This document shows positions 38,227-48,474 of a stretch of DNA of 64,000 bases, in pieces (the first letter of the stretch is position 1; each line of letters starts with the position of its first letter). Source of the stretch: Halomonas sp. M20 (lineage in GTDB: Bacteria > Pseudomonadota > Gammaproteobacteria > Pseudomonadales > Halomonadaceae); assembly GCF_020622265.1 (NCBI RefSeq), contig NZ_JACNMQ010000001.1, forward strand, positions 434,001 through 498,000. The letters run 5' to 3'. The notes below the pieces were generated by a model. It was not told the origin of the DNA and ran no database searches. It was given only the letters and a program-made list of their open reading frames with translations. The position numbers and the translations under genes are program-made.

Positions 38227-38310
38227 GCCGGTGTGGCGGAATTGGTAGACGCAGCGGATTCAAAATCCGCCGCTGGAAACAGTGTGTCGGTTCGAGTCCG
38301 ACCACCGGCA
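38227..38310 (+). tRNA. tRNA-Leu, anticodon CAA
   Basis: Acceptor arms GCCGGTG and CACCGGC pair perfectly. The D-arm holds GCGGAATTGGTAGACGC. The anticodon arm is GCGGA-TTCAAAA-TCCGC with anticodon CAA (reads UUG). A long class II variable arm follows, and the T-arm is GTCGG-TTCGAGT-CCGAC. The discriminator base is A. The genomic bases after it are CTA, so CCA is not encoded and must be added. Confidence 0.96.
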
Positions 38311-46241: not shown

Positions 46242-46567
46242 AATATAGTGATGCTGCTCCATTTTTCCATTATTGTAATTTTGAAGTAGTTTTTATTTTA
46301 AATTTAAACTTTTTAGTAAGGTCGTGTGTGTTATCTGGTCTCGATGTAGAGTTTATTTAGCCGGTTTTTTCAGATCAAATGCCCATTCATGGAGCATGAT
46401 TGCAAGCTAGTAGTAATTAATTGCTTGTTTTTAAAAGAACAAAAAAATAGCGCACTTGAAGGTTATATTTAATTCTTGAAAATTTTTCGTAACAGTAATC
46501 GATAAGTTCTGTATTTAATAAATATTGCGGTTTTGCCTAATCGCCAATGAATGGCTAATCTCAAACT
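46242..46567. other. AT-rich intergenic stretch after the GlxA-type regulator
   Basis: About 325 bp of low GC with many A/T runs. I see no ORF with an RBS, no strong hairpin and no clear operator in it. The weak promoter TTGCCT-17-TAATCT (46533-46561) at its right end may drive the candidate sRNA. Confidence 0.6.
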
Positions 46568-46737
46568 TAGCAGTAAGCAGTGACCACAGAGGGCGAAGAA
46601 TATGGTGAGGCAAGCGCTCAGGGAAGAGCTGGTTGCTGGCAGGATGCCAGACAGCCAAGGAAACTGATTGCACGCCCCTTCAATGACCCCTCTTTTTTCT
46701 CCAAGGCTCCAGTTCATCGTGAACGGAGCCTCTTTTT
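46568..46737 (+). ncRNA. Candidate Csr/Rsm-type regulatory sRNA (GGA-loop hairpins)
   Basis: Between a weak promoter (46533-46561) and a strong terminator (46705-46737) the plus strand holds three GGA motifs. Hairpin one is GCTC-AGGGAA-GAGC (46616-46629). Hairpin two is a 10-bp stem GGTTGCTGGC/GCCAGACAGCC with one bulge that presents AGGAT in the loop (46631-46656). A third, AAGGA, is largely single-stranded (46657-46661). GGA in hairpin loops is the CsrA/RsmA-binding signature of RsmX/Y/Z and CsrB/C RNAs. The 5' end is uncertain. A 21-codon ORF inside it is an alternative reading. Confidence 0.45.
46705..46737 (+). terminator. Strong terminator of the candidate sRNA
   Basis: GGCTCC (A bulge) GTTCA, loop TCG, TGAAC GGAGCC forms an 11-bp stem followed by TCTTTTT. 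On the minus strand there is no T-run, so it serves a plus-strand transcript rather than the sulfatase gene that ends at 46754. Confidence 0.85.
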
Positions 46738-46753
46738 CATTTAAATCTTTCGA

Positions 46754-48319
46754 TCAGTGCCCAAAGAGTCGGTGTAGCAGAGGGCGAAAATCCGCCATGG
46801 CGCGTTTCGATGATTGCTCCCGTGGTATCAGTCCGGAAGTGAAACCTGCATCGATAAAGGGCGTGACTACATTCTTGTCGCGGCTCAGTACGTGAACGGG
46901 AACTTCCCGGCTTGCATTCTTTCCAGTGATAAGCGGTGCAGGTTGATGATCGCCCAGGAGAACGAGAAGTGCGTCGTCTTCAAGGTAGCGCTCGGCATAG
47001 CCCAAGGCCGCTGCCAGCGCATAGTCGAGGGCCCGGGCATAATGTACGCGCACTCTGTCTAGGTCCTGCCAGAGCTCTTCTGGTGTTTCTGCCTCCTTTT
47101 TCAAGGCCGTCCATTGCTCAAGCACGCTGCTGTGTTCCAGGCTTTCCCAATCCACGATAGGGAGAATGGGTGTCCAGGGAGCGTGACTACTGATCAACGC
47201 GAGTTCGGCGAATAGAGGCGGTTCATACGTTTGTCGCTGCGACTCGAAAAAACGCCAAGTGTACTGATCCGGCATGGTGACCCAGTTCAACGATGGCCCC
47301 GAATAAGGAATGTTTCGGGCAGTAAAAACATGGTCGTAGCCTAGCTGTCGCCCCTGGGGCCAGGGTTGGGTAAGCCCGGGCATAATGGCCAGATTACGAT
47401 GTCCAGTCTTACGAAAATCATCATTCAGGGTGGATTGTCGTTGACTGAGCATCAATTCATAGTGGCGTTGCGTCGTGATGCTCAGCCCGCTGAGTAGCGT
47501 GGCATGAGCAAGCCAGGATTGACCGCCCTGCACCGGCGATATCAGTTTGGCGCTAGCCATGTGTATACCCGAACGTTTCAGGCGCTGCTCGAACTCGGCA
47601 AGGCGCGGCTTGATGGTCGGGGCGTAGCGTTGATCGAAGAGAGCGGTTACGCCGTAGGACTCGATAAAGCCGAGAATGACATCGCGGCCTGCAAGGGCGG
47701 GTAACGGGCGAACTTTCAATGGGTGCTCATCTGTCACGGCGCGCTTGAAATCGGCATAGGCACGATGAGTCTCTTGCATTTGGCGCCAATGTGTCGTGAT
47801 CAGGTTCAGCCCAGGGGTCGAAAAATAGGGCAGCAGCTTCGGGCCAGCTAAACTAGTGGCTAGTAGCCCGCACAATAACAGACCCAGTGCCAGGCGTTTT
47901 TGTCTTGTCAGCACCGGCAGGCGTAGTGCGGCAAAACAGCGAGCGACGAGCCAGATACCTAGAAACAAGATGGCAGCGGTGAACGCGAGGACGATCAGGG
48001 TAACGAAAATTCCCATATTCTGAGTGAGCTGATGAAAAGCAGAGTCTGCCAAGCCGAAATCGAGCAGAAAGTTGAAGCGCCTGCCGAAGGAAAGTCGGGT
48101 AAGTACGTCGAGGCTGGCAAGTAAGAAAAGCAGGGCCAGGCCTGAGACGATGAGCTTGATAAGCCAGGGCCGCCCGCGCTCCGGCAGGATTAGCAGCAGG
48201 GCCGTTAACCAGACGGCTTCCCAGGCAAGAAATACGGCTTCAAGACGCCCTTCCATGAGGTAACGCAGCCCTAGTAGTAGGATGTTAAGGGCGAAAAGGA
48301 TCGCAATAATATGATACAA
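46754..48319 (-). CDS. Membrane-anchored sulfatase/phosphoglycerol transferase-like protein
   Basis: About 521 residues. Four to five N-terminal transmembrane helices are followed by an alkaline-phosphatase/sulfatase-fold periplasmic domain with VILGFIESYGVTALFD (metal/nucleophile region), SSHAPW and LLVLLGDHQPAP. The topology resembles OpgB and LtaS enzymes that transfer phosphoglycerol. Its divergent position next to opgG-opgH suggests it decorates periplasmic glucans (inference). The start is likely TTG 48319, 6 nt after GGAG; a TTG at 48361 would add 14 residues. Confidence 0.75.
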   Translation of the reverse strand: MYHIIAILFALNILLLGLRYLMEGRLEAVFLAWEAVWLTALLLILPERGRPWLIKLIVSGLALLFLLASLDVLTRLSFGRRFNFLLDFGLADSAFHQLTQNMGIFVTLIVLAFTAAILFLGIWLVARCFAALRLPVLTRQKRLALGLLLCGLLATSLAGPKLLPYFSTPGLNLITTHWRQMQETHRAYADFKRAVTDEHPLKVRPLPALAGRDVILGFIESYGVTALFDQRYAPTIKPRLAEFEQRLKRSGIHMASAKLISPVQGGQSWLAHATLLSGLSITTQRHYELMLSQRQSTLNDDFRKTGHRNLAIMPGLTQPWPQGRQLGYDHVFTARNIPYSGPSLNWVTMPDQYTWRFFESQRQTYEPPLFAELALISSHAPWTPILPIVDWESLEHSSVLEQWTALKKEAETPEELWQDLDRVRVHYARALDYALAAALGYAERYLEDDALLVLLGDHQPAPLITGKNASREVPVHVLSRDKNVVTPFIDAGFTSGLIPREQSSKRAMADFRPLLHRLFGH

Positions 48320-48474
48320 GGGGCGCTCCGTAGACAAGCCGACAACAGAACAGTTGAGCAAACGTCAGATTACGCTACCACGTATTGACCCGTTGCTTGG
48401 CGCATCACAACAATGGAGTCATCGTCTCGGACAGGGAAAGGGTCGAACCGTGAACAAGGAGATGAGGAAATTAC

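Follow-up and report, generated by a model that had tools for sequence, protein, structure and literature searches.

A predicted small RNA of the Csr/Rsm type beside a sulfatase-like gene in Halomonas sp. M20, an apparently reduced member of a multi-copy family

The gap between a GlxA-type regulator gene and a sulfatase-like gene of Halomonas sp. M20 very probably holds, judging from comparison of related loci, a small RNA gene related to a multi-copy RNA family that seems to be built to titrate CsrA. The gap belongs to a stretch of 64,000 nucleotides, called here the window, in which the element occupies positions 46568..46737 of the + strand. Within its family the window copy appears to be a shrunken and faster-changing member, and its RNA is probably a reduced, Gac-independent Csr/Rsm sponge that is perhaps decaying. 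The preferred reading, in which somewhat better than even confidence is placed, is that of an sRNA with its own promoter, which is a diverged paralog of a Modicisalibacter family of Csr/Rsm type and a weak predicted CsrA sponge, likely without direct Gac control. Transcription of the small RNA would start from this promoter at about 46569 and stop at the terminator near 46737. The RNA would present three GGA sites, two in hairpin loops and one in a mostly single-stranded AAGGA, which would suffice for roughly one CsrA dimer. When made, such an RNA would titrate CsrA weakly and relieve CsrA control of mRNAs.

The preliminary description of this gap had reported GGA-in-loop hairpins, a further AAGGA and a terminator, and all of these elements were found where it had placed them (Table 1). 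In the folding ensemble the GGAs at 46622 and 46642 are unpaired (1.0 at all three bases) and that at 46659 is mostly unpaired (0.33, 0.99, 1.0), while the terminator conceals a further one at 46725; two of the three accessible GGAs lie in hairpin loops. Hairpin 4 consists of a 10-bp stem with one bulged A, where 46631-46640 pairs with 46646-46650 and 46652-46656 around the loop AGGAT (46641-46645). The equivalence of the preceding hairpin to family hairpin 3 was read through the row of the G005 ortholog (L011, aligned there by the structured model R2 described below) and through alignment A4, R2's own window row being shifted at this place. The start near A46569 was predicted from the distance to the -10 element and from the 5' end GCRGYAAGCAG, which is common to the window-type copies and lies near the 5' end of the paralogs. 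A consensus scan listed neither the window terminator nor a + strand promoter here.

Table 1. Position of the predicted RNA and its parts in the window
Feature	Position	Strand	Basis
Sigma-70-like promoter, TTGCCT-17-TAATCT	46533..46561 (-35 46533-46538, -10 46556-46561)	+	seen by comparison
Window-type Csr/Rsm-like sRNA, predicted transcript of about 169 nt	46569..46737	+	homology
Stretch aligned end to end by structured model R2	46570..46672	+	15.3 bits, E 0.0084 in 64 kb
Hairpin GCTC-AGGGAA-GAGC (family hairpin 3), GGA in loop	46616..46629 (GCTC 46616-46619, GAGC 46626-46629)	+	via G005 ortholog
Bulged hairpin with loop AGGAT (family hairpin 4)	46631..46656	+	GGCAGGATGCC common to window and family
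AAGGA, mostly unpaired (family's 3' AAGGA)	46657..46661	+	R2 alignment, folding ensemble
Intrinsic terminator	46704..46737 (stem-loop 46704-46731, then CTTTTT)	+	fold; present in six copies

The display of GGAs by itself is not above chance. In 5000 dinucleotide shuffles the two hairpin-displayed GGAs compare with a mean of 0.98 (p = 0.26) and the total of 4 GGAs with 3.65 expected, and neighbouring pairs of displayed GGAs occur in the window 57 times on the + strand (the element itself counted) and 41 times on the - strand. The fold energy of the element is ordinary as well, with z-scores of only -1.2 and -1.5. A covariance-model search with the known Rsm and CsrB models had been suggested earlier; when it was run with Rfam 15 over the 64 kb it gave no RsmY, rsmX, RsmZ, CsrB or CsrC match at the gathering score and, below threshold, only implausible weak matches around the element, and the sole match of the window at threshold was a tRNA gene (38227-38310, + strand). 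The same was found for 19 related loci, none of which matched Rfam RsmX/Y/Z or CsrB/C at threshold and two of which had sub-threshold matches: the paralog L094, with rsmX over the RNA (25.7 bits against a cut-off of 56, E 0.58), and L083, with RsmY.

The evidence for the family comes from comparison. The query 46500-46745 was searched by blastn against 14 genomes of the genus (apparently Modicisalibacter), the own genome (G000) among them, and besides the own copy it found copies in G010, G005, G009 and G002, all adjoining the same sulfatase-like gene (5 of 14 genomes). A sixth copy, in G004, was located by synteny, so that orthologs stand beside this gene in 5 of the 13 other genomes; a blastn match in G004:C18 (L006) was discarded as a chance match of 24 bases. 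The gene called sulfatase-like (46754-48361, - strand) gave no Pfam match at E 0.001; relatives of it occur in Halomonadaceae, Marinobacter, Ectothiorhodospiraceae and other groups. By eye, all six copies possess a promoter of the form TTGCNT-17-TAANNT (TTGCAT-17-TAAAGT in G004), the 5' end GCRGYAAGCAGT and a terminator hairpin with a T run, of which the stem sequence differs in G004; a similar -35/17/-10 spacing was also seen by eye upstream of several paralogs.

Inside the RNA the orthologs vary considerably. By eye, none of the six window-type copies has kept the GGAs of family hairpins 1 and 2, and hairpin 1 is without GGA also in the C10-type paralog introduced below. The earlier expectation that the GGA loops would be conserved between species holds in part, since by eye the hairpin 3 GGA is kept in five of the six copies (G010 has AGGCAA), that of hairpin 4 in four and the 3' GGA in four, and one ortholog, G009, has lost most of the hairpins, the hairpin 3 stem included. 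This stem is GGTC/GACC in G004 and GATC/GAAC, with one mismatch, in G002. Relative to G005 and G010 the window copy lacks about 21 nt of hairpin 4 between two GGCAGG-like repeats (alignment A4), and before the terminator stem four GGAs are present in the G005 copy and at least four in the G004 copy.

A sequence-only model made from the six window-type copies (R1) was run over 250 genomes of the taxonomic family and found, besides the six, 13 further loci with E <= 6.1e-5, all in the genus, the next match having E 0.011. Six of these paralogs belong to G003, two to G012 and one each to the own genome, G007, G010, G009 and G004. The own-genome paralog, here the C10 type, was matched at G000:C10:231694-231834 (E 1e-5) and is a GGA-rich RNA at L082 355-535 (G000:C10:231654-231834, - strand). 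The 13 paralog cores carry 6-8 GGAs each, 86 in total; the consensus structure leaves 70 of them unpaired and places 49 in apical hairpin loops. A GGA is found in hairpins 2, 3 and 4 of all 13 paralogs and in hairpin 1 of 10. The family fold combines a closing stem with hairpins 1-3 and with a nested arm at whose end hairpin 4 is found, with CGGTC-AGGAT-GACCG and GGC-AGGAT-GCC as typical hairpins, and single-sequence folds vary (L086 folds otherwise). On the 13 paralogs the consensus structure has 34 pairs, 9 of them with changes on both sides, and none of 500 shuffles attained its covariation score, while 20 attained its number of pair types. With 30 members both sides have changed in 28 of the 34 pairs, and none of the five measures is attained in any shuffle, in an alignment that had been fitted to the structure. 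The Csr/Rsm reading of the preliminary description thus gains its support through comparison: the window element is a diverged paralog of RNAs whose covarying fold leaves most of their 6-8 GGAs unpaired, and some of these RNAs have a near-perfect GacA box.

A structured model (R2) was then made from the 13 paralogs without window-type sequences; it is not a fully independent test, because these paralogs had been picked by R1, a window-type model, and their likeness to the window type is partly selected. R2 matched four of the other window-type orthologs with 72.0 (G004), 46.7 (G005), 44.2 (G002) and 43.1 bits (G010; E 3.5e-20 to 1.7e-11), and G009 was unmatched. In the 64 kb the window copy was the best of four matches, its E-value being rough and the next match having E 0.44, and in genome-scale searches it was not reported at E <= 1e-3. 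Since the window copy stays below this threshold, its family membership rests largely on its orthologs. On L083, which holds two other GGA-rich RNA candidates, R2 reached only 8.2 bits, so that GGA richness alone is insufficient for a match. At E 0.001 it found 21 of the 250 genomes, 12 of them among the 14 of the genus and the other 9, with weaker matches, outside it, and in an order-level draw 2 of 194, the own genome and one at E 8e-4; in searches of this size weak matches are lost to the filters. A tree of 29 rows groups its four window-type rows in a single clade (support 96/87), although the program warned of long branches meeting within this clade and the bootstraps were unsettled.

The number of R2 matches was also compared with the number of csrA genes. 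G003, G007 and G012 possess two or three csrA genes and two to seven R2 matches, G003 having three csrA genes and seven matches, while genomes with a single csrA have none to two. The correlation over the 14 genomes, with relatedness ignored, is 0.70 (Spearman, permutation p 0.002), and it becomes 0.65 (p 0.005, relatedness again ignored) once the count includes three window-type copies that R2 had missed.

The degree of constraint was estimated by comparing identities to the window in four segments with the third positions of matching codons in the neighbour gene (Table 2). The promoter and the 3' end have changed less than third codon positions against G009 and G010, and all four segments have done so against G005 and G002; against G010 only, the 5' part and the hairpins are about as diverged as these positions. 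The C10-type RNA has identities of 96% (G009), 89% (G010), 88% (G005) and 82% (G002), or 94% and 89% for the first two in another alignment, and in each of the four pairs its conservation is higher than that of the window-type GGA hairpins. According to these comparisons there is some constraint on the window type, and less on its GGA hairpins than on the C10-type paralog; against G010 these hairpins have diverged about as far as third codon positions, and in G009 they are mostly missing.

Table 2. Identity of window-type orthologs to the window copy by segment
Genome	Promoter (46532-46568)	5' part	GGA hairpins	3' part	Third codon positions
G009	35/37	43/47	9/12 (37 of 49 bases absent)	65/72	79%
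G010	34/37	34/47	36/49	62/73	74%
G005	31/37	36/47	41/49	66/73	74% (110 codons only)
G002	26/37	35/46	35/49	51/69	52%
G004	10/22 (row trimmed)	29/47	26/47	35/73	46%

The components of a Csr system are present throughout the genus: csrA (PF02599 over cut-off) was found in 14 of 14 genomes, the own copy at G000:C8:510762-510917, and a uvrY/gacA homolog likewise in all 14, with 50-53% identity to E. coli UvrY (49% in a partial match of G005). The GacA box has the consensus TGTAAGN6CTTACA. Upstream of C10-type RNAs a match of 11-12 of 12 positions to this consensus was found at -276 to -282 in five of five genomes. In the own genome the box reads TGTAAGAAATAACCTACA and precedes the RNA by about 279 nt. 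No GacA box stands before any of the six window-type copies, where the best match in 420 nt upstream is 7-8 of 12 (shuffle p at least 0.5). Lacking the box and having a conserved promoter of its own, the window type is probably outside direct Gac control. Ten multi-copy-type RNAs examined reach 7-9 of 12; among the other R2 matches those in G008 (11), G011 (10) and G087 (12) are box-like and the rest have 7-9. In the multi-copy subtype without GacA box (L085, L087, L092-L095) an upstream stretch like CTTTTCTAAACAT before the -35 element is common by eye, which may represent a site for another activator.

Over the whole genome the box pattern with up to two mismatches occurs at 43 places against 49 for the reversed control, so there is no overall excess of it; three places have one mismatch, and two of these are upstream of GGA-rich RNAs. 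Two further GGA-rich RNA candidates face each other on contig C8. The + strand one (L209 about 900-1140, G000:C8:522800-523040) has 12 GGAs, a GC-rich terminator at its end and a sub-threshold RsmY match (25.2 bits against a cut-off of 57, E 0.026). The - strand one (L083 about 280-450) has 10 GGAs in 175 nt, a GacA box with one mismatch at 523407-523424 and extended blastn matches in three other genera, along with many shorter ones only on its terminator. The matches of the C8 query in 32 of 61 genomes were not counted as orthologs, many of them being short and on the terminator hairpin.

The main rival to the weak-sponge reading is decay, according to which a former Csr sponge is losing its GGA sites by drift and retains no role or only trace CsrA binding; it is judged improbable, at roughly one chance in five. 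It would agree with the two GGA sites absent from every copy, with the loss of most hairpins in G009 and of the hairpin 3 GGA in G010, with a body near the third-codon rate against G010 and with the lower conservation of the GGA hairpins relative to the C10-type RNA in four pairs, and the other GGA-rich RNAs of the genome could suffice. However, against G005 and G002 all four segments exceed third codon positions (hairpins 41/49 versus 74% and 35/49 versus 52%, respectively), the promoter and the 3' end do so against G009 and G010, and the locus is kept in six species, with the G005 and G004 copies still carrying their four and at least four GGAs. A change of function is considerably less probable still: the RNA would now act on mRNAs by base pairing through its conserved 5' segment GTAAGCAGTGACCACAGAGGG, with the GGA hairpins as remnants. 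This would account for the G009 copy, which despite hairpin loss keeps the RNA start, promoter and terminator (43/47 identical at 46569-46615), and for the presence of GTAAGCAGT in five of six copies and GCAAGCAGT in G004, but the G010 copy differs at 13 of 47 positions of the 5' segment, and in the sponge family this segment makes up the closing stem, so that its conservation may be inherited structure.

That the gap holds no sRNA gene at all, merely chance hairpins, a small ORF or an untranslated region, is very improbable, even though the GGA hairpins and the fold energy are within chance and an ATG frame of 21 codons exists. This frame (46602-46667), which the preliminary description had named as a possible conserved element, does not keep its start across the six copies, the position being ATG here, GTG in G009 and no start codon in the other four (by eye). 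Six genomes have orthologous copies of promoter, RNA body and terminator at this locus, and the element is homologous to structured paralogs elsewhere; both findings speak against such an origin, which is unlikely given the R1 paralogs, the covariation and the R2 matches to orthologs. A broader proposal is offered tentatively, at about one chance in four: in this genus the CsrA-sponge family would grow and shrink with csrA dosage, and the window-type clade would have left Gac control and acquired its own promoter, so as to couple CsrA activity to a different signal through a low-capacity sponge.

RsmX/RsmY/RsmZ and CsrB/CsrC are molecular-mimic sRNAs, that is, CsrA sponges controlled by Gac/Bar systems. 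The family described here is like them in having GGAs in hairpin loops, a terminator, csrA and uvrY/gacA homologs in the same genomes and, in the C10-type paralog, a near-perfect GacA box; it differs in a fold of its own with no Rfam match at threshold, and the window copy differs further in having three accessible GGAs and no GacA box. The RNAs would represent a new Modicisalibacter Csr-like family, and no description of it was found among the matches listed in the literature on sRNAs, CsrA and RsmZ of Halomonas, Halomonadaceae and Modicisalibacter, on CsrB of Oceanospirillales, and on RsmV and RsmW. In a review, the proteins of the CsrA family are described as binding short hairpins with GGA in the loop and being titrated by mimic sRNAs, and its table gives the sponge RNAs of the Halomonas anticariensis Gac/CsrA system as "Unknown" (PMC7366521). 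The present data offer, in a genus related to H. anticariensis, concrete candidate sponge genes, some of which are preceded by a GacA box, together with a model by which they can be found; the copies are at different stages of GGA-site loss, and their number goes with that of the csrA genes. If confirmed, these data would open to study the number of GGA sites that a sponge requires and the way in which sponge dosage tracks the dosage of csrA.

Further parallels are found in other genera. In Pseudomonas aeruginosa RsmV and RsmW are Gac-independent sponges adding to the Gac-controlled ones (PMC7366521, PMC9308961), they are probably of independent origin (PMC7366521), and RsmV uses four CANGGAYG sequences in stem-loops (PMC9308961). 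The window RNA resembles RsmV in that its GGCAGGATGCC may be set beside CANGGAYG and in being a predicted sponge outside direct Gac control; unlike RsmV and RsmW it is a paralog of the sponge family itself, and its Gac independence is predicted from the missing box only. Azotobacter vinelandii is listed with multi-copy Rsm RNAs, RsmZ1-7 and RsmY1-2 (table in PMC7366521), a situation similar to that of the present genus with up to seven family members per genome (G003), although the RNA family is a different one here, with no Rfam RsmZ or RsmY match at threshold.
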